NCBI RefSeq assembly: GCF_026191915.1 | Contig: NZ_JAIMBY010000001.1 | Location: 620,001 to 684,000, forward strand | DNA length: 64,000 nt | Direction: 5' to 3' | DNA from: Acidiphilium sp. PA | GTDB lineage: Bacteria; Pseudomonadota; Alphaproteobacteria; Acetobacterales; Acetobacteraceae | Shown: positions 18,581 through 32,339 of the stretch, piece by piece | Numbering within the stretch: the first letter of the stretch is position 1 | Layout of the letters: each line of letters begins with the position of its first letter | Made by a program: the position numbers and the translations under genes | The notes under the pieces: generated by a model | What the model was told of the DNA's origin: nothing | The model's input: the letters and a program-made list of their open reading frames with translations, nothing else | The model's database searches: none

Positions 18581-18931
18581 TCAAAACGCCTCGAATTCAC
18601 CAGCCTCATGCGTCGATAATTGCGCCGGCGCGCCGCGCAGCCGGCACGACAGATCAGACAGTGTCACCACGCGCGCCGCCGGCTCCGGATCGACCGACCA
18701 CGCCTCCGGCACCGAGGGGCGCAACGCACGCATGAAATCGCTCAGCCCATATAGTCTTTGCGTGATCAGATCGATAATCTGCGCCTCCTGATGGCAGGCG
18801 AAATCATCGGCTGCACGCAGTATCGCCGGACCCAGAACCGCCTGGAATTGTTCTGCCAGACGTCCGAGTTCGACAAGTTCCGCCTCAACGGTAATCAGCA
18901 GATCACCGAACAACACCTGTGAATTGCTCAA
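18581..18931 (-). CDS. Short helical protein ending the che operon; possible minimal CheZ-like phosphatase
   Basis: 116 residues, last gene of the chemotaxis operon, its start overlapping the cheD stop by 4 bases. Predicted all-helical with a disordered tail. The segment around residues 50-63 ([14 protein letters not shown]) places Asp54 and Gln58 in a D-x3-Q pattern; CheZ has its catalytic Asp143 and Gln147 in the same spacing within DLTGQ on a long helix. The rest is too divergent for recognition, and CheZ is about 214 residues. Function therefore uncertain; a CheY-P phosphatase is the leading guess from motif and context. Confidence 0.6.
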
Positions 18932-19506
18932 AACAGCTCCACCATGCCGGCCGTGCTCAGCGATGGCGGCGGGGCCCGGTTGGCCTCGGCCCGGAAAACC
19001 GCACCACTGCCGCTGCTCAACAACGTCTGGCGCGCCCGCCCCGATACCGGCCAGAACTGAATCCGCCGCCCCTGGTTGCCCCGCAGACTGCCGCCGACAA
19101 CCGCAATTCCCTCCGCCTGTAAAAACCGCTCCGCAAATGCCGCATTCAACTGCCCTACATCCGTCAAACCGGCCATCATGCAGGACCCACCAAACAACTT
19201 CGCCTGCAACCGCCGCCGCTGTGCGCCATGCCGGAGGAGGCCGTTGATCAATAGCTCCATCGAATATGCGCCATAGCGCATCGCATCACCGCCTCGGCTC
19301 GCCTGTCCAGCGTCGGTCCGATCACCCGGCAACAGAAAATGATTCATCCCACCGACCCCCGCCTCGCGATCCCACATGCAGGCCGCAATGCACGATCCCA
19401 GAATCGTCGTCAGCACCACACCAGGATCATTCGAAACGTGTTGCTCACCTTGCACGATGTTGATTTTGCGTTCGACAACGACATCCAGATCAGTCGGTGA
19501 ACTCAT
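18928..19506 (-). CDS. cheD: Chemoreceptor glutamine deamidase CheD
   Basis: 192 residues. The CheD core is clear: [16 protein letters not shown] holds the catalytic Cys (about residue 39) and [10 protein letters not shown] the catalytic His (about 56); KLFGGSCMM is a further family block. The protein deamidates Gln side chains of chemoreceptors and can be sequestered by phosphatases in some species. Start overlaps the cheY stop by four bases. Confidence 0.93.
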
Positions 19507-19898
19507 TTCAGCGCACCGATCACCGCCTCGATTTTTTCGCGCAATGAGTCCGGCGTGAACGGTTTGACCAGATAGTTATTGACGCCATGCTCAACCGCGC
19601 TCAACACCATCTGCTTGTCGGCACGACCGGTCAGCATGATAAAGGCAGTCTTGCTGATCGGCCCATGAGCGCGCACCGCCCGCAATAGACTCAATCCGTT
19701 CAGATTGGGCATGTTGTAGTCGGAGATGATCAGATGGATCGGCGTCTTGTGCGTCAGAATGGCCTTGAGCGCCTCTTCGCCATCGGCCGCCTCCAAAATC
19801 GTGCCAACCCCCCATTGCTCCAGCGCCATTCTCGCCAGGCTCCGAATGGTCTGCTGATCATCGACGACCAGAATTGTCAGGCTGCTTGCAAGAGGCAT
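19503..19898 (-). CDS. cheY: Chemotaxis response regulator CheY (first copy)
   Basis: About 131 residues, single receiver domain. The acidic pair is in ILVVDDQ, the phospho-acceptor Asp in [10 protein letters not shown] (about residue 60), the Thr in FIMLTGRA and the Lys in NNYLVKPF (about 112). ATG 19898 shares one base with the cheB stop; a GTG one codon earlier is also possible. Together with a second cheY at 24588 this operon has two single-domain receivers, one likely for the motor and one likely a phosphate sink, but the sequence alone does not say which. Confidence 0.92.
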
Positions 19899-20935
19899 CA
19901 CACTCTCTCCCTATGATGAAGGTTGGTGCTGCGCAGAATGTGATCGGCCATTTTGCCGAGTGGTAATTGGCGTGAGACGGCGCCGATCTCGAACGCGACT
20001 TTCGGCATGCCGTAGACGATGCAACTCGCCTCGTCCTGCCCGACCGTCTCCGCCCCGGCTTGGCGCATCTCCAGCAGCCCCTGTGCCCCATCCCGTCCCA
20101 TGCCGGTCAGGATCACACCAAGCGATCTGGCACCGATCACCCGCGCCACCGAGCCGAACAACACATCCGCCGACGGCCGGTGCCCACTGACCCGCTCGCC
20201 CTCATGCAACCGGCAGCGCGGCTTGCTGGGATTGGCAATCTCCAGATGCGCGCTGCCCGGCGCCAGATAGATATGCCCCGGCAGTACCAACATCCCGTCT
20301 TCCGCCTCCGCGACTTCAGGAGCACACAGACGGTTGAGCCGCTCGGAAAAACTCTTGGTGAACGTCGCCGGCATATGCTGGGTGATCATCACGGGCGGGC
20401 AATTCGCCGGAAACCGGGATAGTATCGCAATCAATGCCTCGACCCCGCCGGTGGAGGAACCGATCGCCACGACCCGGCCATCCGGCGCGAACCGCCCGCC
20501 CCGATCAGGCGTCACCGGTTCGGCGGGCACAAAACTGCGCGGTTGCACGCGCGATTTTGCCGCCGCCCTCACCTTCTCGGGCAATTGGTCGAAATCGTGA
20601 TAATCGCCATTGGATGGTTTCGCGACGCAGTCGAACGCGCCACATTCGAGCGCCCGCAATGTCACCGAGGCGCCGGCCTGGGTCAGTGTCGAAACCATGA
20701 TAACCGGGGTTGGCCTCAACCGCATGATCTTTTCGAGAAACTCGAGACCGTTCATGTTCGGCATCTCGACGTCCAGCGTGATCACATCGGGATTCAACTG
20801 CTTGATCGCCGTCCGCGCCTCCAGCGGATCTGCGGCATGCCCGACCACCTCGATCAGCGGGTCCCGCCTGAGCACCGCGGAAATCAACTCCCGCATCGTG
20901 GCGGAATCATCAACCACCAGAACCTTGACGCTCAT
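19898..20935 (-). CDS. cheB: Protein-glutamate methylesterase CheB
   Basis: 345 residues. N-terminal receiver ([10 protein letters not shown], phospho-Asp about residue 55 in [10 protein letters not shown]) and C-terminal esterase with Ser in [12 protein letters not shown], His in ITQHMPATF and Asp in GMGRDGAQG. It removes methyl groups from receptors in adaptation, opposing CheR encoded just before. Four-base overlap with cheR. Confidence 0.96.
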
Positions 20936-21825
20936 CGGCGCGCCTCCTTGCCGACCAGCGGCCGATACGTGGTAATCCCATCGCTGCGCAGCAGCCGCTC
21001 GGCCGGCCCGCTCACCCGTTCGGAATGTCCGATGTAGAGCGCACCCGCCGGATCAAGCAGGGGCACCATGCGCGACCAGATCGCCGCCTGCGTCGGATCG
21101 TCAAAATAGATCGCGACATTGCGACAGAAAATCGCCTGGAACCGCCCCTGCATCGGCCAATCCCCGATCAGGTTGAGCCTGCGGAACTCCACCAGTACGC
21201 GCGCCGCATCGGCGATCTTCACCATACCCCGGTTCTCATCGGCCGGTGCAAACCAGCGCTGGCGCAGATCAGGCGGTACCGGCTCGATGGCAGACTTTTC
21301 ATACAAGCCAGCCTTGCCGATCGCGATCATGTTGGGATCGATGTCGGTGGCCAGAATCCGGACATCGTGTTGCGCCGCATCCGGCAGCAATGACAGAACT
21401 GTCAACGCCATCGAATACGGCTCCTGGCCGCTCGAAGACGCGGCCGACCACAGCCGAACTCGCCCACCCTTGCGGGCACTGGCAATCAACGGCGGCAGAA
21501 TCTGCGTGCGCAAATGCTCGAAATGATGCGGCTCACGATAAAATCGCGTCACATTGGTCGTCAGCGCCGCCAGCATTTCCTGCCGCTCGTCGCCGCCCGT
21601 GGGACTGCCCACGAGTTCACAATATTCGGAGAAATTTTTCAGCCCCAGGGCGCGCAACCGCTTGGCCAGCCGCGAATACACCAAAGTCGCCTTGTGATCG
21701 GGCATCGCGATCCCGGCATCCGCATAAATCATCGCCGAAATCTGGCGAAAATCCTCCGCGGTCAGGCGATACTCACCACCCTCGATCAGGCTGCGTCCAC
21801 CGGCTGCATTGAGTGTCGCGCTCAT
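20932..21825 (-). CDS. cheR: Chemoreceptor glutamate methyltransferase CheR
   Basis: 297 residues with the CheR N-terminal helical domain ([25 protein letters not shown]-like region) and SAM-binding C-domain ([38 protein letters not shown]). The beta-subdomain that docks on receptor pentapeptides is present, in keeping with the WxxF ends of both chemoreceptors in this window. Overlaps cheW and cheB by four bases each. Confidence 0.95.
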
Positions 21826-22286
21826 GCTGCCTGACGTTCTTCCAACGGCAGGATATGATCCAGCGAGATAAGACTGATCATCCGCCCATCCACCGGCAGA
21901 AGGCCGCGCACAAACGCCTTGACCAGATCGGACGCGACATCCGGGGTCGGTTGAATTGCGTTTTCGTTCAGCGTCAGGATATCCGAAACCGCATCGACCA
22001 GCAGCCCGACCTGCTGGTTATGGATCTGCGTCACGATGATCACGTGCCGCGCGGTCGGCGCCGATCCCGGCAACCCGAGCCGCACCGCGAAATCCACGAT
22101 CGGCAGCACCGCGCCGCGCAGGTTGATCACGCCGCAAATATACCGCGGCGCCTGTGGCAGCGCGGTCGCCGCCGTCCATCCGCGGATCTCCCGGACCGCC
22201 ATGATGTTGACGCAGAACTCCTGCTGACCAACCCGAAATGCAATAAATTCGCGGCCCTCGGCCCCGTTCGTGAGCGATTCATTCAT
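21822..22286 (-). CDS. cheW: Chemotaxis coupling protein CheW
   Basis: 154 residues, SH3-like CheW fold. Typical blocks are [43 protein letters not shown] and [12 protein letters not shown]. It bridges CheA and chemoreceptors in signalling arrays. It starts three bases after the cheA stop and overlaps cheR. Confidence 0.95.
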
Positions 22287-22289
22287 GGC

Positions 22290-24572
22290 TTAACTCGCTT
22301 GTAAAAGAGTTGGTTCGGCCCGCAGTGCGTCACCACGGATAAGTTCAGTCCTTGTCACCGAGACGATCGCATCGACATCGAGAATTAGGGCAACGCGCCC
22401 ATCGCCCATTACCGTTGCGGCGGCGATGCCGGGCACCGCGCGATAGTTCGCCTCGAGACTCTTGATCACGACCTGCCGCTGGCCCTGGATTGCATCGACA
22501 ATCAGCACCGCGCGAATGCCGCCCTCACCTTCGACCAGCAAAGCCACGCTCTTGTCAGCCTCGAGCGGGACCTCACTATAGCCGAGCGCCATGCCGACAT
22601 CGACAAGCGGAATATAACGCCCGCGCATCGCCACAACCCGCACATCCGTCCCAAGCGTGTGAACATTGGCAGCCTGCGGCTGCAATGTTTCGATGATCGC
22701 GCTGAGCGGAACGATCAGCGTATGGCCTGCCACGCTGACCACCATGCCATCGAGCACAGCAAGCGTCAGCGGCAGGCTCAACGTAAAGGTCGAACCGGCC
22801 CCCGGCCGCGACGCAATCGAAATTCGCCCGCCGAGCGACTGAACCGAGCGCCGCACCACATCCATGCCGACCCCCCGGCCAGAGATGTCGGAAACTTCAC
22901 TCGCGGTCGAAAAGCCTGGCAGGAAGATCAGATTGTCGGTTTCTTCATCGCTGAGCTGCGCTTCCGGCGCGACCAACCCCTTCTCGATCGCCTTCGCCTT
23001 GACCCGTTCCCGATTGATCCCGGCCCCATCATCCGCCACCTCGATCACGATTCGCCCGGAGCGATGCAGAGCCGTCAGCCTGACCACCCCTTCCTCCGGC
23101 TTACCAGCCGCAAGCCGTGCATCGGTTGACTCCAACCCGTGATCGATCGCGTTGCGGATCATATGGGTCAGCGGATCGGCAATCCGTTCGATGACTGTTT
23201 TGTCGACCTCGGTGCCCTCGCCATCGGTCAGCAAACGGACTTGTTTTCCCGTCATTGCCGCGACCTCACGCACCAGTCGGGGCATGCGCTGGAACACCGA
23301 TCGCACCGGCTGCGCACGGATCGCCATCACGCTGTCCTGAATCTCGCGCGTCAGGTGTTCGAGCTCGTCGAGCGCGGCCGCCACGCCGGAGGCGCGCGCA
23401 AGCCCGGCTTCCATGACGCGCTGGGTCAGCATCGCCTCATTGATGACCAGTTCGCCGACCAGGTCGATCAGGCGATCAACCCGGTCGAGATCCACCCGGA
23501 TCGTCGCCCCGACGGCAGACCCGGTGTCATTTTTCGATGGCGCGCCGTCCGTGCCGGGCGCTGCATCCTGCCGGGATCGAACCGCCGGCGGCGATGGATT
23601 TTGTGCCCCGCCGGCAATGGCTCCTGGCTGTTCACGATCGGATGACGATACGCTCTGTTGAGCTTTGCGAATCATTGCGAGCACATCGGCGTCGGAAGGC
23701 ATGCCACTGTTCGCCGTGACGTTGGCTGCCGTGACGGGATCGGGTGTCGGGATCGTCTCCGCGGTTCCCCCGCCGGCTACCTCTGCGTCTGGCTGTGGCA
23801 GATTCAACCGATCAGACTGGTCTGACGCACGGCTGATCACCAATTCGCAATCGTCCTCGACGAATTCGAACGCGCTGCGAATCGCCTGCTCATCACACTC
23901 GGCGTGTAATGCGATCGTCCAGGCCAAATACGCGCCTTCCGGATCGAGTTCGGCAAAGTCGGGCAGTGCTGAGCGATCGACCGTCACCCTGACCGGGCCG
24001 AGCATGCTGACTTCGCGCAGCAGCAGCGCCGCCTCGTTCGCATTGGCGTAAAGATCGGCGAACGGCCGAAACTTGATGACCCAACCACCGGTCTGCAGCG
24101 TCTCGTCTTCGACCGGGACCGGCAACGGCAGGAAGGTCAAATCGCCGAGCCCATCATCCTCCGCTGGATCGCTCTGCTCCGTCGCGTCCCCGTTGGTGAG
24201 TGCCTTGAGCGCCGCAGCCAGCGATGTCGTCTGCGCTTCATCAGGTGTTGCGCCATCGCGGGCGCACCGAACCTGATCGGCCAGCGCATCCGAAGCGCGG
24301 AGCAGCAGCCGCATCGCGTTTGCGGATGCCTCAAGCTTGCCCGAGCGCACCCGATCGAGCGCGGTCTCGAAGACATGGGCAAAGCGTACCAGATCCTCCA
24401 GCCCGAACGCGCCAGCGCCACCCTTGATCGAATGAACGGCCCGGAAGACGGCATTGACCGTCTCCTGGTCGGTCTCGCCGCCCTCCATCCGCATCAGGCC
24501 GCTCTCTAGTTCGCACAGCTGCTCTTCACATTCCTGAAAGAAGGTCTCACGGATTGCCGCCATCGGGTCCAT
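22290..24572 (-). CDS. cheA: Chemotaxis histidine kinase CheA
   Basis: 760 residues. P1 HPt domain with phosphoryl-accepting His47 in AVHSIKGGAGAFGL; a P2-like region (about 165-255); a disordered Pro/Ala/Asp-rich linker (about 260-335); dimerisation helices (VDRLIDLVGELVINEAML); kinase domain with N-box NAIDHGLES, G1 DDGAGI and G2 GRGVGMDVVRRSV; and a C-terminal CheW-like domain. AAGGAGG lies about 9 bases before the ATG. Complete, with all catalytic boxes intact. Confidence 0.96.
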   Translation of the reverse strand: MDPMAAIRETFFQECEEQLCELESGLMRMEGGETDQETVNAVFRAVHSIKGGAGAFGLEDLVRFAHVFETALDRVRSGKLEASANAMRLLLRASDALADQVRCARDGATPDEAQTTSLAAALKALTNGDATEQSDPAEDDGLGDLTFLPLPVPVEDETLQTGGWVIKFRPFADLYANANEAALLLREVSMLGPVRVTVDRSALPDFAELDPEGAYLAWTIALHAECDEQAIRSAFEFVEDDCELVISRASDQSDRLNLPQPDAEVAGGGTAETIPTPDPVTAANVTANSGMPSDADVLAMIRKAQQSVSSSDREQPGAIAGGAQNPSPPAVRSRQDAAPGTDGAPSKNDTGSAVGATIRVDLDRVDRLIDLVGELVINEAMLTQRVMEAGLARASGVAAALDELEHLTREIQDSVMAIRAQPVRSVFQRMPRLVREVAAMTGKQVRLLTDGEGTEVDKTVIERIADPLTHMIRNAIDHGLESTDARLAAGKPEEGVVRLTALHRSGRIVIEVADDGAGINRERVKAKAIEKGLVAPEAQLSDEETDNLIFLPGFSTASEVSDISGRGVGMDVVRRSVQSLGGRISIASRPGAGSTFTLSLPLTLAVLDGMVVSVAGHTLIVPLSAIIETLQPQAANVHTLGTDVRVVAMRGRYIPLVDVGMALGYSEVPLEADKSVALLVEGEGGIRAVLIVDAIQGQRQVVIKSLEANYRAVPGIAAATVMGDGRVALILDVDAIVSVTRTELIRGDALRAEPTLLQAS

Positions 24573-24587
24573 TGCGCACCATCCTCC

Positions 24588-24953
24588 TTAAGCGGCGACG
24601 CGTCGGATAACGTCGACCAACTTGACCGGATCAAACGGCTTGACGATCCAGCCCGTCGCACCCGCCGCCTTCGCTCGGCTCTTCTTTTCGGCGTCGACCT
24701 CCGTGGTCAGCACCAGCACCGGCGTCGACCGCCAGGTGACATCGCGCCGCACCGCTTCGATGAAACCGAACCCGTCCATGCGCGGCATGTTGATGTCAGT
24801 GACGATAACGTCCGGTGTCTCATCACGCAGCACTTCAAGCCCGTGCACGCCATCCTCCGCCTGCACGACCCGGAAACCGGCCTCCACCAGGGACAGGCGC
24901 AGCATGTCGCGCATTGTCCGTGAATCGTCGACCGTCAATATTGTCTTGATCAA
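24588..24953 (-). CDS. cheY: Chemotaxis response regulator CheY (second copy)
   Basis: 121 residues, single receiver. Acidic pair in LTVDDSRTMR, phospho-Asp53 in VTDINMPRMDG, Thr in VLTTEVDAEKK and Lys105 in WIVKPFDP. The EVDAEKKSRAKAAGATGWIVKPF block is typical of the CheY directly upstream of cheA in alphaproteobacterial operons. The start is TTG, overlapping the STAS gene stop (TTGA); no ATG or GTG fits better. Confidence 0.93.
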   Translation of the reverse strand: MIKTILTVDDSRTMRDMLRLSLVEAGFRVVQAEDGVHGLEVLRDETPDVIVTDINMPRMDGFGFIEAVRRDVTWRSTPVLVLTTEVDAEKKSRAKAAGATGWIVKPFDPVKLVDVIRRVAA

Positions 24954-25267
24954 GCGCCCATTTCCCTTCGATGATCAAACGCCGTGGGCTCGATGCCCAT
25001 CAATTCCAGCGTGGCGATCACGCCGGGTGAAAACCCCTCGACCAGAAACCCGCGCTGATCGGCGGCCCAACGTGCACGCGCTGCAAGCAACACTTGGAGA
25101 CACTGCCCGCCAAATCGTTCGACGGCACTGGCATCAATGACCAGGTCGCGGCCACGGTGGCGGGATAGAAGCGCATACAACGGTGCGGATGCCTTGATAT
25201 CGAGAATCGGATCAAGCCTGAGTTTGACAGCTGCAGCGCCTTTGGGCGGGTTGGATCTCTTTGGCAT
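24950..25267 (-). CDS. STAS-domain protein of the che operon
   Basis: About 105 residues (ATG 25267; a TTG at 25276 overlapping the receptor stop is the alternative). A short basic N-terminus, then a STAS fold: KLRLDPILDIKASAPLYALL and LVIDASAVERFGGQCLQVLLAARA. In SpoIIAA-like anti-anti-sigma factors this loop is DSSGL with a phosphorylated Ser; here it is FGGQC, so regulation by Ser phosphorylation is unlikely. STAS genes next to cheA occur in many alphaproteobacteria; the partner is unknown. Confidence 0.85.
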   Translation of the reverse strand: MPKRSNPPKGAAAVKLRLDPILDIKASAPLYALLSRHRGRDLVIDASAVERFGGQCLQVLLAARARWAADQRGFLVEGFSPGVIATLELMGIEPTAFDHRREMGA

Positions 25268-25272
25268 CTTGT

Positions 25273-26793
25273 TCAAAACTCCTCCCAGCTATCGACATCC
25301 GCTGCGACCGCAAGCTTGCGGGCCGCGGCCGCCCCGCTCGACCTGAGCTGCGAGACCGCCGGACGGACCGCCCTGATCGAGCGCTCCGCCGGCGCAGGTC
25401 GGCCGGCTGCTTTGCGCGGTCCCTGACGGGACGATGGGTCGGCGATCTCGCCGATCTGAAATTGGGCGATCAAGGCAGCAAGTTGCTCGGTCTCCTGCGC
25501 TAGTGCATGGCTTGCCGCGGTCGATTGCTCGACCATCGCAGCGTTCTGCTGAGTGACCTGATCCATCTGGTTGACCGCCACATTCACCTGATGCAGCCCG
25601 GTCGCCTGCTCCTGCGCGGACGCAGCGATCTGCACGACAACCTCATTGATCTCGCCGATCTGAATAACCAGTCGCTGCAAGGCCTTGCCCGTCTGCCCGA
25701 CCAGTTCGACACCGCTGCCGACCTGTTTGGACGACGTTGAAATCAACGCCTTGATCTCCTTGGCCGCATCGGCCGATCGTTGTGCGAGCGCCCGCACTTC
25801 GGAGGCGACCACGGCAAATCCACGCCCGGCATCACCGGCTCGGGCGGCCTCGACCCCTGCATTCAATGCCAGCAGATTGGTCTGGAAGGCGATTTCATCG
25901 ATTACACCGATAATGTTGCTGATCTGCAGCGATGAAGCTTCGATGCCGCTCATCGCCGCCACGGCTTCACGCACCACCGCCCCGCTGCGTTCGGCGTCCG
26001 CCTGCGCCGTACCGACGACGTCGCGCGCATGGGTGGCGCCGTCGGCCGTCTTGCCTACCGTTGCGGTGATCTGATCCAGCGCAGCTGCCGTCTCCTCAAG
26101 GCTGGCCGCCTGTTGCTCGGTACGACGGGACAAATCATCCGCAGCCGATGAGATCTCGCCCGTACCGGCACGGATCGCCCCCGTATTGGTCGCAATCGTC
26201 CTCATCGTGTCCTGAAGCCGACCAAGCGCGTTATTGAAATCGCTACGCAACCGTTCGTATCCGGGGGCGAAAGCCTCGGTGATACGGTAGGTCAGCGCCC
26301 CGGAAGAGAGGCGCTCGAGCCCTTCGGCCAGTGAATGAACCACATGCTCCAACTCCTTCGCGGCGGCATCACGTTCTGCTTCGGCGCGTGCACGTTGCGC
26401 TTCCAGCTCGATGCGCGAGGTCAGCCCCTCCTCAGCTTTATTGCGGGCAATCAACGCGGTTCGAAACGCATTCATCGCCTTGGTCATTCGACCGACGCAA
26501 TCACGATGCTGCGTAAACCGGACCGGTGAATCGAGATCGCCCGCCGCCAATGCCTCCATTCGCTCGACCGTCGTGACATAGGGATCGGCGATCGCTCCCC
26601 GTAAAACGAAGCCAAGCACGGTTGAGACCAGCAATGCGACCGCGCAGACTGCGATCGAAATTCGGCCCAGCGCCGGCTGGGCATAGATCATCGCCGCAGC
26701 GGCAAGGCAGATGAGCAGTAAGCCGCTCTCCATTGCAAACGCCAGGGTGAGCTTCAAACGGATCGGAGCCGTCTCACGAAACCATGTTAGCAT
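25273..26793 (-). CDS. Methyl-accepting chemotaxis protein with minimal periplasmic part
   Basis: About 506 residues. Two adjacent membrane helices with only a few residues between them ([15 protein letters not shown], then [20 protein letters not shown]), HAMP ([27 protein letters not shown]), and a signalling hairpin with the canonical tip [27 protein letters not shown] region. There is almost no room for an external sensor, so it probably senses within the membrane or cytoplasm. The C-terminus DSWEEF is a CheR/CheB-tethering WxxF pentapeptide. ATG 26793 with upstream GAGG is preferred to an unsupported ATG at 26841. First gene of the che operon. Confidence 0.9.
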
Positions 26794-27237
26794 GCGTGCC
26801 TCGTTACTTGTCGCGCCAGTTGATGATGAGGTCGAAATCATTGGGATGACTGAGCATGAACGTCCCGACCGCAGTCCGTATGATCACGATAGGAGACAAA
26901 GATTACGCCATCGTTAACGATGACCCTTGACCGATTATCCTTTTGGGAGGGGGTGCCAGCGCCAAGCCGTGAAACGTACCACCGGCGCGGCGATGTCTCC
27001 CCCGACCGCCGCCGCTCAAAGGCATCAACGCCCGTCCGTATTGGCGCTGCTGACGGAACCAGTCGCCGTCCACACACAGACGAACCGGCGGCAATTATCC
27101 GTCTGTTAAGATTCCGCGCGCATTATGACCGCGCGTCGCGCTTATCGGCAGTAAATGGAGACACCTTCCTTGAACAGAACTCTCACGATGAGCATGGACC
27201 GTGCCGGAACGCACTCTCCTCCGCAGGGGCAACCACT
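26794..27237. other. 444 bp divergent intergenic region between two chemoreceptor genes
   Basis: Should hold the promoter of the leftward che operon and that of the rightward receptor gene. The most distinct element is the 12 bp palindrome at 26910-26921. The frame of the right-hand receptor stays open across much of this stretch, but the predicted protein there is low-quality and arginine-rich, so I see it as non-coding. No small gene recognised. Confidence 0.5.
26910..26921. promoter_or_regulatory. Perfect 12 bp palindrome ATCGTTAACGAT
   Basis: Self-complementary 12-mer in the spacer between the divergent chemoreceptor genes, about 120 bp from the che operon start. AT-rich core in GC-rich DNA. 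A regulator-binding site is possible; it does not fit the CtrA TTAA-N7-TTAA pattern. Confidence 0.35.
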
Positions 27238-29052
27238 ATGAATATGGTTCTTCTGACCGGCGCCGGGATCGTCGTTGTTGGCCTTGGTTTCAAGATCATG
27301 CAAGCGTGGGTCCGCCATCAGTTGACGCCTGTGTGCGAACATATTGCTGCCGTGGTCGAGCGGGCAGCGGAGCATGAGCGCATGGTACTGGCGCAGAATG
27401 CCCTCGGTCAGAACATCGACATGCTGCGCACGTTAACACAGGCTTATGGTGACGCACGGCTGGAGGGCGAGGATCTGTGGTTCGGTGAGCATCGCATCAA
27501 CGGGGATTTCGAACTCGTTGATCAGGTAAAATCGAAATTTGGGGGTGCAGCCACCATTTTTGCGCGGGATCGGCGGGTGTCCACCAATATCCTGAGCGCA
27601 ACCGGCGCGCGGGCGACCGGCACCTGCCTGGCGGCGGGTCCGGTGCGCGATCGTGTACTCGGACAGGGGCTCAGCTATCGCGGCGTGACCGAAATCCTCG
27701 GCGAGCCTTACGTGACGGTATACGAGCCGATCCTGCGCGACGATCAGGTCATCGGCATCTTGTTCGTCGGCGTCCCGGCCGCATCAATCGTTGGATCGCG
27801 TACCAAGACCGCCTCAACCACGCCATGCTTCAAGGCGATTGCCGCCAACATCGACAATCTGGAGGCAATCGAGTCGGGACAACTGGCGGCTGCGGAACTC
27901 GCATTTGCGAAGCGTCAGGAAGCCGATGACGTCAACCGGCGATTTACAGCCGAACGGCAATCGATCGCCCGAAGTCAGGCGCTGGCAATCACGGCGGTCG
28001 CAGCCGGTCTGGAGCAACTGGAAGCTGGCAACCTGACCTATCGGATCGATGGCGTTCTACCCGGCAGCTATGAAAAGCTCGGACGCGATTTCAACAGCGC
28101 CATCGCAAAATTGCAGACGACCATGACAGCGATCGCCGCGAGCAGCGCCGGCGTGCGGGCCGGGGCGAGCGAAATCACCCATGCGTCGGACGATCTCGCC
28201 CGGCGCACGGAGCAACAGGCGGCGACGCTCGAAGAAACGGCCGCAGCGATGGACCAGATCACCGCAACGGTCCAGACCACGGCACGCCGCAGCAGCGATG
28301 CGCGGGACCTGGTATCGGCGGCAGGACAGGACGCAAAGCATTCGAGTGATGTCGTACTCGAAACGGTGAACGCGATGAGTGCCATCGAGGGATCGTCCCG
28401 CCAGATCGACAAGATTGTCGGTCTGATCGATGAAATCGCCTTTCAGACGAATCTGCTGGCCCTGAACGCCGGGATCGAGGCCGCTCGCGCGGGCGATGCC
28501 GGGCGGGGATTCGCCGTCGTCGCCACCGAGGTGCGCGCGCTGGCGCAGCGCTCGGCCGACGCGGCGAAAGAGATCCAAGGATTGATCACCGCATCGGGGC
28601 AACAGGTTGCGGTTGGCGTCCGCCTGGTCGGCGAGACCGGGCAGGCGCTGACCCGTATCGCCGAACAGGTTACAAGCCTCAATGCGCTGATCACCGACAT
28701 CGCCGCCTCGGCCAGCGAGCAGTCCACCGGGCTGCATGAGGTCAACACGGCGGTCAACCAGATGGATCAGGTCACGCAGCAGAACGCCGCCATGGTCGAA
28801 CAGGCGACCGCCGCAAGCCATGGTCTCGCTAACGAAGCGGATGAACTCGCGCGCTTGGTCGAGGCATTCGTCATCGGTGACGACCTGCGCCAACCGGTCA
28901 ATGAGCCCCTGGTCGAACGGCGGAATTTGGCTACGCGTCCTTTCGCGGCTACGCCTGTCAGGCAGCGCACGAAACCGCCGCCGGTGTTAGCGACGGGCAA
29001 GCCGAAACTGGTCGCCGTCAGTTCAAGCGACCCGGCGTGGCAAGAATTCTGA
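27238..29052 (+). CDS. Methyl-accepting chemotaxis protein with single-Cache sensor domain
   Basis: About 604 residues. One N-terminal membrane helix ([17 protein letters not shown]), then a Cache-type ligand domain (about 55-185) with [40 protein letters not shown] and [18 protein letters not shown], the Cache_3/Cache_2 fusion pattern. Then a coiled region and signalling hairpin with [20 protein letters not shown]. The C-terminus AWQEF is a WxxF adaptation tether. Only one clear membrane helix is visible, so the sensor may be cytoplasmic unless a second, weaker helix exists. ATG 27238 follows AGGGGC and directly precedes the helix. Confidence 0.88.
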
Positions 29053-29081: not shown

Positions 29082-32000
29082 ATGAGGTCAGGTCTGGTTG
29101 GTCCTCGCCTCGCTCGATCGCTTCTGTTGTGGTTTGCGCCAGGAGTGGTTTTGCTGGGCATCCTGAGTTTCGAGACGATCGAATTGATGTCTGCGCAACA
29201 GACGATCGTCCATCGCGCCCGGACTGATGCGACCGAATATGCGGGCAGTATCGCGCGCCATTTGTTCGCACAATTCGCAGAGCTTGAATTCATCGGCGTC
29301 AGCCTGCTCGCACCCCGTCCAGATGGAACGATGCGGCCAACCGGCCGGTCGGTTGTCGCTCTGCGCCGCTTCATGGCGCTCCACCGGAGCCTGTACGCTT
29401 TCAATATCCAGTCGGCCGACGGCAACACGATCGTGTGGTCGACCCAGAAACAGGCCGCAAGGCCAATCACCCGCGCCGCCGGGTTCACCCCCCTGCCCGG
29501 TCATCCGGATTACCTGCTCGGTCGATCGCGCTACGCGGCCCGAGTTGGTACCTATGCGATCACAATGCGCTTTCGCGCCGTCGCGGCAACCGGCGTCACG
29601 CGGTACTTCGTCGGCACGCCCTACCGACTCGAACAACTATTGGCTTATCCAAACGTTTTCTCATCCCCTTGGGTTCTAACCACGGTGGACGTGCGCAACC
29701 GGCGCCCAATCGGGCAATGGCGAGGCGGACTGATGTTTTTCCCGCCCAATCGACCGGGCGTTGGGAATCCGCTGAAGCCAACCGGTACTAACAAAAGTGA
29801 GGTCAACGTACCGGGACTGCCGTTGAAAGTGCTGATCTCCTGGCCCATCACCTGCGCACCCCGGCTCTGGGCCACGGATGGCTGGGTGCGCTGGATCATG
29901 GAACTGCTCGTTCTGGTCGGTATCGTCGTTCTGACCCGCCAGATTGAACAGAGCCAGCGCGCTCGCGAGGATACCGTTTTCGCCATCGAGCACGCGCGCC
30001 GCCTTGATCGCCTGACCGGCACATTGTCACGCGTTGGCTTCGACGAGCAGATTATCGGCCTTGCTGACCGGCTCGCACCGGGGGCGCAGTTGGCCGCATT
30101 CGTGATCGACATCTGCAATTTTACCGCCCTGAACAAGCGACTCGGCGCCACCGCCGGCGACCGCATATTGATCGAACTTGCGGCGCGCCTGAGCGCACTT
30201 CCCGGTGCGCTCCTTGTCGCGCGGGTCGGCGGCGATTCTTTCGCATTTGCGCGGATCGATCCCCGTCGCACCGCCGTTCATGGTCATATCGAAACGGCGC
30301 TCAGCGTGGCGGAGGAGCGATTCCGCCCGCTCGAAGGGATCGCGGAGCGTCTGACCTTGTCACTCGGCTGTGCCATCCATGGCGACGACACCGAGATTGC
30401 GAACGCCCTTCTCGCAGTCGCCGAAGCCTCGTTGTTCGGACAGGTGCAACGCCAGTCAGCAATCAGACGGCAGACTCTCGATCCATATGGCGATCAAGCC
30501 GGGCTGTTGCTGGGTTGGGCGCATCGGTTTCTGGCTGGCCGTTTCGATGAACTTGCCGCCGGCCTCCTCGACCACGTACGGGCGGACCAGCGCAATAAAG
30601 CCGTAACCGCGGCGATGACGCCGCAGGTGATAGCAAGGTTTGCCACGCTGCTGCCGAGCTATATCGAAATGCTGCTCGATCCCGGGCTGACGCGTGCGCA
30701 GCACGCGGAACGCGCTCGTCAGCTTGGCCGGTTGCATGCCGCCCTCGGCGTTGGCGCGAACGGGATAACCGCGACGATGAGTTGGCTCTATCAGACGATC
30801 ACGGTCATGAGTCAGCAGGTTCCAGGTCGCTTCAGCCAGCGTCAGATCTACCTCGACATTGTTCTGCGGCGGATCGAGTTCGATCTTGAATTGCAACAAG
30901 AGGCCGCGGAGTCGCTGCGTCAGGACATCCACGGCAGAATGCGCGAGCTCGCTCATAGCCTCCGCCCTCTGCGTCGGCGGATCGATATCCTCGATGCAGT
31001 CGTCGCTGCCTTCGATGGCTGGCCGTTCATCGCCTTCGCCGCGGTATATGGGCAGGACCCCGACGGCGCCTTTATCGTTGAAGCGGAAAGCGATGCTCAT
31101 CGCGCCTGGTTTGACCAGCATCCCGACCAGAAACTTCATGGCAGGCGCCTGACTCCGGCCAGCCTGCATCCCATGGCCGAGGCTTGGGCGTCCGGTGAAC
31201 CCGTCGATATCCCGTTGATCGACGGGCAGACAGATCAGGGCCCGGCATGGGCCGTAACCCTCGGCAATGCCGGGATTCGCAGCATCGCCGCGCTGCCGGT
31301 GCTCGACGCCACAGGACGCATCCTGGGCATGATCAAACTTTATGGTCGCCTGCCCAACCTGTTCCGCACCAGGCATATGCGCGAGACTGCCGAAGCCCTG
31401 AGCCTGTTGATCAGCCGCGCGATCGAACGTACGCACAGTGCTGACACTGTGATGATCTCCGCGGACGATCGAAAAAACTGGCGCGAGCAATTGTTCAATG
31501 GCGGTTTGCGGATGTTCCTCCAGCCAATCGTCGATCTTGCAAGCGGCACGTGTACCAAGTTTGAAGCCCTTGCGCGCATCGAACTCGCCAATGGCCAGAT
31601 CATCAGTCCAGGGCAGTTCCTGCCCGCGCTCAGCGAACAGGAACTCGATCATCTGTTCGTCGAGAGCCTCAACCACGCCCTCGACGCCATTCTTGAGTTT
31701 CAGAGCAAAGGCTTTCCTCTCGATATCTCAGTCAATCTGCCTCCGTCGACCTTGCGCAAACCCGCCTGCGTCGATTGGATACGAACGGCGCTGTCCGCAC
31801 ATCGGATCGACGGCGCACGCCTGACCTTGGAATTGCTGGAGGATCAGGGCTTCGCCGGCGACGATGAACTTTGTGCGCAGGACGCGGCGCGATTGCTCGA
31901 ACTGGGCGTGCACCTCGCGCTCGATGACCTCGGTGCCGGCTATGGCAGCCTCACGCGCCTGCGCGCCCTGCCGTTCGACATTCTCAAGATCGATCAGAGC

Positions 32001-32339
32001 CTCGTCCGGGGCATTTCAGCGGGTGACCGCCGCAGCGTGCCGCTGGTCGAGGGGCTGGTGCAAATGGGCCGTAAGCTCGGCATCAAGGTTGCGATCGAAG
32101 GTCTTGAAACGCGGGAATTGATCGACTTCGCCCGCAGTATGGGCGCTGAGCTGGGTCAGGGGTATGGCATCGCGCCGCCCATGGCGCAAAGCGCGGTCCT
32201 GCCGTGGCTGGTCCGCTTCGCCGCGCGATCGGCACGAGGCGGGGTGCAGGTACGCGCTGGCGCGCATGCGCCCCAAACGGCGCAGCATGACGACGCTGAT
32301 GACGAGGCCCCCACACTCGTTGGCCTGCATGGCGCGTGA
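29082..32339 (+). CDS. c-di-GMP phosphodiesterase: periplasmic sensor, degenerate GGDEF, globin-like, GAF, EAL
   Basis: About 1085 residues. Membrane helices at about 11-29 and 270-288 flank a periplasmic sensor region. A GGDEF domain follows (about 300-455) whose signature is GGDSF and which lacks an RxxD inhibitory site, so cyclase activity is unlikely. Residues about 480-600 resemble a sensor globin, with candidate proximal His552 in GRLHAALGVGANGI. A GAF-like domain (about 640-785) precedes an EAL domain with all key residues: EAL at 828-830, N in NLPPSTL, LELLE, DDLGAGYGS, K in LKID, EGLE and GQGYG. It probably degrades c-di-GMP. A GTG at 29037 overlapping the receptor stop is an alternative start. 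Confidence 0.85.
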   Translation: MRSGLVGPRLARSLLLWFAPGVVLLGILSFETIELMSAQQTIVHRARTDATEYAGSIARHLFAQFAELEFIGVSLLAPRPDGTMRPTGRSVVALRRFMALHRSLYAFNIQSADGNTIVWSTQKQAARPITRAAGFTPLPGHPDYLLGRSRYAARVGTYAITMRFRAVAATGVTRYFVGTPYRLEQLLAYPNVFSSPWVLTTVDVRNRRPIGQWRGGLMFFPPNRPGVGNPLKPTGTNKSEVNVPGLPLKVLISWPITCAPRLWATDGWVRWIMELLVLVGIVVLTRQIEQSQRAREDTVFAIEHARRLDRLTGTLSRVGFDEQIIGLADRLAPGAQLAAFVIDICNFTALNKRLGATAGDRILIELAARLSALPGALLVARVGGDSFAFARIDPRRTAVHGHIETALSVAEERFRPLEGIAERLTLSLGCAIHGDDTEIANALLAVAEASLFGQVQRQSAIRRQTLDPYGDQAGLLLGWAHRFLAGRFDELAAGLLDHVRADQRNKAVTAAMTPQVIARFATLLPSYIEMLLDPGLTRAQHAERARQLGRLHAALGVGANGITATMSWLYQTITVMSQQVPGRFSQRQIYLDIVLRRIEFDLELQQEAAESLRQDIHGRMRELAHSLRPLRRRIDILDAVVAAFDGWPFIAFAAVYGQDPDGAFIVEAESDAHRAWFDQHPDQKLHGRRLTPASLHPMAEAWASGEPVDIPLIDGQTDQGPAWAVTLGNAGIRSIAALPVLDATGRILGMIKLYGRLPNLFRTRHMRETAEALSLLISRAIERTHSADTVMISADDRKNWREQLFNGGLRMFLQPIVDLASGTCTKFEALARIELANGQIISPGQFLPALSEQELDHLFVESLNHALDAILEFQSKGFPLDISVNLPPSTLRKPACVDWIRTALSAHRIDGARLTLELLEDQGFAGDDELCAQDAARLLELGVHLALDDLGAGYGSLTRLRALPFDILKIDQSLVRGISAGDRRSVPLVEGLVQMGRKLGIKVAIEGLETRELIDFARSMGAELGQGYGIAPPMAQSAVLPWLVRFAARSARGGVQVRAGAHAPQTAQHDDADDEAPTLVGLHGA

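Follow-up and report, generated by a model that had tools for sequence, protein, structure and literature searches.

Can one protein of Acidiphilium sp. PA join the sensing of a gas to the turnover of cyclic di-GMP (c-di-GMP)? The question is raised by an open reading frame (ORF) at 29082-32339 on the forward strand of the 64,000-nucleotide stretch analyzed here (the window; contig NZ_JAIMBY010000001.1, positions 620,001 to 684,000). A first-pass annotation had placed a globin-like segment between a degenerate GGDEF domain and a GAF-EAL pair, and had proposed an oxygen or NO globin that, together with a periplasmic sensor and an active-looking phosphodiesterase, would tie gas sensing to c-di-GMP and, through an adjacent chemoreceptor gene, to motility. 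Profile searches, structure prediction and comparison with relatives uphold the predicted globin fold, the candidate haem ligand H552, the degenerate GGDEF and the intact EAL domain; O2 as the ligand is weakened, and the motility link holds in part. That the protein is a membrane-anchored c-di-GMP phosphodiesterase whose globin binds haem via H552 and favours NO (or CO) is a reading whose chances we consider balanced.

The reading frame is open throughout; with the alternative GTG start at 29037 it would run into the end of the upstream gene (29052). The encoded protein runs from a transmembrane (TM) segment through a periplasmic segment, a second TM segment and a degenerate GGDEF domain to the sensor globin, GAF and EAL domains, as follows:

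29082..32339, +, coding sequence of the globin-containing GGDEF/EAL protein, ATG start, 1085 aa
29109..29171, +, TM segment 1, about aa 10-30, by hydropathy
29172..29879, +, probable periplasmic sensor, aa 31-266, between the two TM segments
29880..29948, +, TM segment 2, about aa 267-289, by hydropathy
30003..30434, +, degenerate GGDEF domain, aa 308-451, above the Pfam cut-off
30228-30242, +, GGDSF motif, aa 383-387, by sequence motif
30477..30941, +, sensor-globin domain, aa 466-620, by profiles, AlphaFold2 model and structure matches
30564..30569, +, L495-L496, distal side, aligned with DosC Phe42-Tyr43
30651..30653, +, L524, distal side, aligned with DosC Met69
30735..30737, +, H552 codon, aligned with DosC H98, the proximal haem ligand
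31038..31424, +, GAF domain, aa 653-781, above the Pfam cut-off
31473..32180, +, EAL domain, aa 798-1033, above the Pfam cut-off

The globin is internal (aa 466-620 of 1085), behind the TM segments and the GGDEF domain, and not N-terminal as in classical globin-coupled sensors (GCS).

Identification of the sensor-globin domain

The Pfam Protoglobin model (PF11563) matched the window protein at aa 483-606 with 17.2 bits (E 0.005; cut-off 25 bits), and at E 0.001 this protein was the only Protoglobin match in its genome. Matches at E 0.01 or better were found in 16 of 27 proteins scanned, the window protein included, a set that also contains two canonical globin-chemoreceptor proteins (L067 and L068). 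The family's own profiles did match sensor globins. Against PDB sequences, a six-relative profile found Tlr1989 (8h17) at E 7.9e-6 and AfGcHK at E 0.066, and a 47-relative profile found 8h17 (1.1e-8), AfGcHK (7.5e-7), GsGCS (9e-7), HemAT (3.6e-6), a stressosome anti-anti-sigma factor chain and BpeGReg, the whole set spanning E 1.1e-8 to 0.011. Two designed repeat proteins scored 2.5e-6 and 4e-6 with the latter profile, with no single stretch passing alone. Profile-profile comparison was made with 16 canonical sensor globins, of which 14 came from genomes of the class Alphaproteobacteria (Pfam model) and one from the family-sample search, DosC being the last. The four Acidiphilium globins alone reached a probability of 88% (E 3.1e-6), with H552 placed on the invariant His of the 16, and the family of 47 reached 98.5% (E 3.5e-15).

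The AlphaFold2 model of the segment, built from six sequences, has a predicted local distance difference test score (pLDDT) of 87 and a predicted template modelling score of 0.81. Sensor globins occupy ranks 1-23 in Foldseek and ranks 1-13 in VIA-align (Z 15.2-17.2), the best structural matches being DosC, AfGcHK, BpeGReg and HemAT. After these, VIA-align lists the best matches outside the GCS, the Bacillus sporulation inhibitors pXO2-61/pXO1-118 (Z 14.1 and 13.8), which are haem-free sensor globins. Since family profiles, profile-profile comparison and model all point the same way, aa 466-620 is confirmed as a predicted sensor-globin fold.

A chance likeness, or a helical linker that merely resembles a globin, was rejected on the profile, profile-profile and structural matches, and we regard the linker as highly improbable. 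Its case lies in the low Pfam score and in the tendency of helical bundles to inflate structural Z values; against it, sensor globins fill the top rows of both structural searches, the proximal His and the Gly positions on either side of it match those of canonical sensors, and the Protoglobin matches among the scanned proteins include the window protein.

Distribution of the family

The globin gene is held by 4 of 13 genomes of the genus Acidiphilium. The orthologue of A. rubrum ATCC 35905, identical to the protein of genome G006, shares 84% identity with the window protein, and the other two (G007 and G003) share 49-50% overall and 45-47% within the globin. Beyond the genus, the six-sequence profile matched 31 of 397 genomes of the family sample, and a profile search of genome contigs kept 79 loci, with 69 ORFs carrying a globin match. 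These ORFs include members from Thiomonas, Acetobacter, Rhodanobacter, Oleiagrimonas, Hydrogenophilus, Halothiobacillus, Paraburkholderia, Methylomonas and Acidithiobacillus, as well as from bins titled Nitrospirae, Eremiobacterota and Acidimicrobiaceae.

Ninety-nine globins were kept after removal of duplicates (L103, L118 and L110, identical to L071, L057 and L051); the pocket-residue alignment also left out two identical globins (L115 and L115b). The relatives were found with the family's own profiles, so the counts lean that way and are no census. The globin lies between GGDEF and GAF-EAL in 61 of the 99, which makes this architecture recurrent and not unique, and is the first recognised domain ahead of GAF-EAL in 30. 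GGDEF or GGEEF is kept in 46 of the 61. Thiomonas sp. FB-6 carries at least five globin-GAF-EAL paralogues (L124, L128, which comprises two adjacent genes, L154 and L155). Pfam Autoind_bind (PF03472) was matched in 8 of 27 relatives (A2 members), where it probably marks an N-terminal GAF-like domain.

The putative haem pocket and its predicted ligand

Aligned with E. coli DosC, H552 of the window protein falls on H98, L496 on Y43, L495 on F42 and L524 on M69. In DosC, H98 binds haem, F42, Y43 and M69 surround it and Tyr43 stabilises O2 (PMC5549716). H552 is the His of the motif GRLHAALGV (aa 549-557), which had been put forward as a candidate proximal site on the condition that the residue be conserved; none of the four Acidiphilium orthologues has anything but His there. 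The distal side differs. The position of Tyr43 is occupied by L, L, F and L in the four orthologues and that of Met69 by L, L, L and V, and none of the positions of DosC 42, 43 and 69 has a polar replacement in the window protein (L/L/L). L524 is counted as a distal-side position because of its alignment with DosC Met69 and the role of that residue (PMC5549716); Gln stands there in 63 of 99 relatives, and a doubt that this conserved E-helix Gln of the family faces the haem was dropped on the same grounds. Judged by its aligned residues, the Acidiphilium clade retains the predicted iron ligand but no longer has the oxygen-binding Tyr.

Where the proximal residue is His and the distal site is apolar, the dissociation constants follow the order NO < CO < O2, in ratios of 1, ~10^3 and ~10^6 (a rule quoted in PMC10882959). 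By this rule the apolar distal side favours NO or CO over O2, and the window globin may sense a gas, more likely NO or CO than O2. Of the proposed oxygen or NO globin, the oxygen half is weakened, since the distal Tyr is Leu in the window protein and apolar in 4/4 orthologues. An ordinary O2-sensing globin-coupled phosphodiesterase, with O2 stabilised by another residue, is unlikely. O2 is the usual ligand of GCS in c-di-GMP proteins (PMC8846402), and 42 of 95 rows outside the Acidiphilium clade have His, distal Tyr and Gln together; however, distal (B10) Tyr and proximal His are invariant in the 16 canonical sensor globins aligned, whereas that Tyr is found in none of the four orthologues, and the window pocket holds no polar substitute at the three DosC positions.

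Across the 99 rows, the proximal residue is His in 74, Tyr in 16, Gln in 4, Leu in 2 and Cys, Phe and Ala in 1 each. Distal B10 Tyr is present in 51, and His is paired with an apolar B10 residue in 18, in several lineages and with the four Acidiphilium globins included. The pocket states form a series: Tyr, Gln and His together; an apolar distal side with His; and Tyr, Gln, Leu or Cys in the proximal position. We tentatively put forward, as a possible rather than a probable reading, that the window encodes an NO- (or CO-) selective globin-coupled phosphodiesterase, its distal Tyr and Gln replaced by apolar residues and its globin lying behind a dead cyclase and ahead of GAF-EAL, in a family showing a natural series of such states. 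Proximal Tyr, once replaced by Cys, was seen in L055, L057, L061, L062 and L064, in L039-L047 and in L054, spread over two or more distinct groups of the tree; these members could be ligand switches or haem-free globins.

A tree of 83 rows was drawn from 102, leaving out ten that were outlying or partial, five that were identical or nearly so and those with <500 aa after the globin start. In it a Thiomonas sp. FB-6 paralogue (L128b) is the sister of the Acidiphilium clade (support 99), and L104/L105, with Tyr, Gln and His at the pocket positions, form the next sister. The GGDEF signature is degenerate in all seven proteins, the four of Acidiphilium, L128b, L104 and L105. From this quick tree, which has no bootstrap and whose root was not inferred, we infer a plausible order of loss: the cyclase signature, then the distal Tyr, then His in one branch.

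Several observations weigh against haem binding and a preference for NO (or CO) in the window globin. The protein by itself falls below the Protoglobin cut-off, the distal assignment depends on an alignment with 13% identity to DosC, and the globin is among the less constrained domains (ratio of nonsynonymous to synonymous substitution rates, dN/dS, 0.155). The proximal His is not universal, being absent from 25 of 99 rows, with at least eight changes between His and non-His on the 83-row tree, and in the nearest paralogue, L128b, Leu stands in the proximal as well as the distal position. A globin domain can therefore persist without the usual haem ligand, and the fold might have been kept as a dimerising or non-gas ligand-binding relay after the loss of distal Tyr and Gln, with H552 a remnant or a structural residue. 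Such a haem-free globin is conceivable, if on the whole doubtful. The loss of Tyr and Gln throughout the Acidiphilium clade, the further loss of His in L128b, the His-less relatives that retain the domain and the likeness to the haem-free Bacillus inhibitors speak for it. Against it, the His is kept in all four orthologues, although two of them have diverged to about half identity, and several other lineages pair His with an apolar B10 residue. The window globin would most likely bind haem through H552.

Enzyme domains and proposed mechanism

The GGDEF signature is degenerate, as the first-pass annotation had it: the motif at aa 383-387 reads GGDSF in the window protein and GADSF in the three other orthologues, and GG[DE]EF does not occur. 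The domain has lost its cyclase signature and probably couples modules only. In the EAL domain, E828, N885, E917, E920, D948, D949, K969, E1006 and Q1026 do not vary across 14 aligned relatives and line up with the solved EAL proteins 2r6o and 5m3c. We take these nine to be the key catalytic and metal-binding residues; with all of them intact, the description of an active-looking phosphodiesterase is borne out at the level of sequence. The genome holds 17 EAL stretches, which makes the window protein one of many EAL proteins. Relative to A. rubrum, dN/dS is 0.155 for the globin, 0.163 for GGDEF, 0.099 for GAF, 0.079 for EAL and 0.818 for the C-terminal tail; by these ratios the globin is under purifying selection, weaker than that on EAL and much stronger than that on the tail.

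In the mechanism that we propose, the protein would act as a membrane-anchored c-di-GMP phosphodiesterase of the sensor-globin/GAF/EAL family, in which the degenerate GGDEF would merely couple modules. The globin would hold haem via H552, its apolar distal side selecting NO (or CO) over O2. Ligand and periplasmic input could then move the long last globin helix (helix 119-154 of the model), and the signal would pass through GAF to change EAL activity, a lower c-di-GMP level favouring swimming.

Comparison with known systems

The window protein resembles E. coli DosC (YddV), BpeGReg and PccGCS in its sensor-globin fold, aligned proximal His and output in c-di-GMP metabolism, and its model superimposes on DosC (4zvb_A) with a VIA Z of 17.2 and a root-mean-square deviation of 1.9 over 140 residues. 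DosC, however, is a c-di-GMP-producing enzyme whose globin, bearing Tyr43, is N-terminal, whereas the window protein has an internal globin, an apolar distal side and an EAL phosphodiesterase output. DcpG of Paenibacillus dendritiformis likewise combines globin, GGDEF and EAL in one protein. Its globin is N-terminal. Compared by description only, DcpG is bifunctional with a working GGDEF, while the GGDEF of the window protein is degenerate and its globin lies between GGDEF and GAF-EAL. DcpG is reported to respond in opposite ways to O2 and NO (PMC10882959).

Among 387 GGDEF-EAL proteins of Acidithiobacillia, Protoglobin is reported in 80, GAF in 130 and CZB in 62, with the order written Protoglobin-GGDEF-EAL-CZB (PMC6416229), and Protoglobin and CZB domains are reported from At. 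caldus (PMC4331095). The domain kit is thus already known from acidophiles, in the Protoglobin-GGDEF-EAL-CZB and GCS-EAL proteins of Acidithiobacillus (PMC6416229, PMC4331095), and is shared with the window protein, but the printed order there has the protoglobin first, and the passages used here mention neither an internal globin nor ligand loss nor Acidiphilium. GCS-HD-GYP of V. fluvialis is also a globin-coupled c-di-GMP phosphodiesterase with a proximal His, and differs by its HD-GYP output, N-terminal globin and distal Tyr49. E. coli DosP, whose EAL domain was among the PDB matches, is a haem-linked EAL phosphodiesterase that senses through a haem PAS domain and has no globin (PMC4263535). 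In a review, domains of the haem protoglobin or PAS type are described as N-terminal (PMC8846402). In the literature searched, we found no account of an internal globin between GGDEF and EAL, of distal-Tyr loss or of repeated His loss; figures and subscription papers lay outside this search, and Fig. 1 of PMC4331095 may draw related proteins.

In the parts of the literature surveyed, characterised GCS carry their globin at the N terminus, have Tyr on its distal side and respond mostly to O2. With an embedded globin that has repeatedly lost its distal or its proximal residue yet kept its fold, the present family would offer a direct test ground for how gas selectivity is set and for whether haem is needed for a globin to pass on a signal. 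If the proposed reading is true, the gas selectivity of c-di-GMP turnover would have been re-tuned several times in acidophile communities, where both attachment and swimming would come under the influence of redox or gas state through such proteins.

Terminal regions and neighbouring genes

Two TM segments make the claimed periplasmic sensor plausible, although its fold could not be predicted: aa 31-266 had no Pfam match up to E 5, and an AlphaFold2 model from four sequences (pLDDT 46.7) was too weak to give a fold. Related N-terminal segments are present in G117 and G234. In G117 (L189:402-3259) the same sensor precedes a GAF-PAS-GAF-GGDEF-like sequence without a globin, and its gene there is divided between two frames. 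In most relatives the EAL domain is followed by about 100 aa with conserved His/Cys, an extension missing from the Acidiphilium clade. Four such C-terminal tails were compared (L055:5521-5850, L050, L056 and L132), and an identity with CZB was rejected, one of the four matching at E 0.018, below the cut-off.

The neighbouring genes concerned with chemotaxis are:

26920..29052, +, upstream chemoreceptor (sCache_3, HAMP, MCPsignal), stopping 29 bases before the ATG at 29082
18928..26841, -, chemotaxis cluster, on the opposite strand beyond the chemoreceptor
18928-19506, -, CheD
19898-20935, -, CheB
20932-21825, -, CheR
21822-22286, -, CheW
22290-24572, -, CheA
24622-25140, +, unnamed 172-aa ORF between CheA and the second chemoreceptor
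25273-26841, -, second chemoreceptor

On the 3' side, the window gene is followed by an Lrp/AsnC regulator and then by sirohaem and sulfite reductase genes, and A. rubrum likewise has chemoreceptor, phosphodiesterase, Lrp, sirohaem and flavoprotein genes in this order. Near the G007 and G003 orthologues, tblastn gave no chemoreceptor match at E 1e-10 within 14-kb loci (about 5 kb either way). The link to motility drawn from the adjacent chemoreceptor therefore finds support in the window and in A. rubrum but not in G007 and G003; on gene order, it appears reasonable for the window and is not a feature of the gene in general. In the listed chemoreceptor ORF, residues 1-53 (26920-27078) have no match in A. 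rubrum, and this ORF probably starts too early. The unnamed ORF at 24622-25140 has no Pfam match and is 84% identical in A. rubrum.

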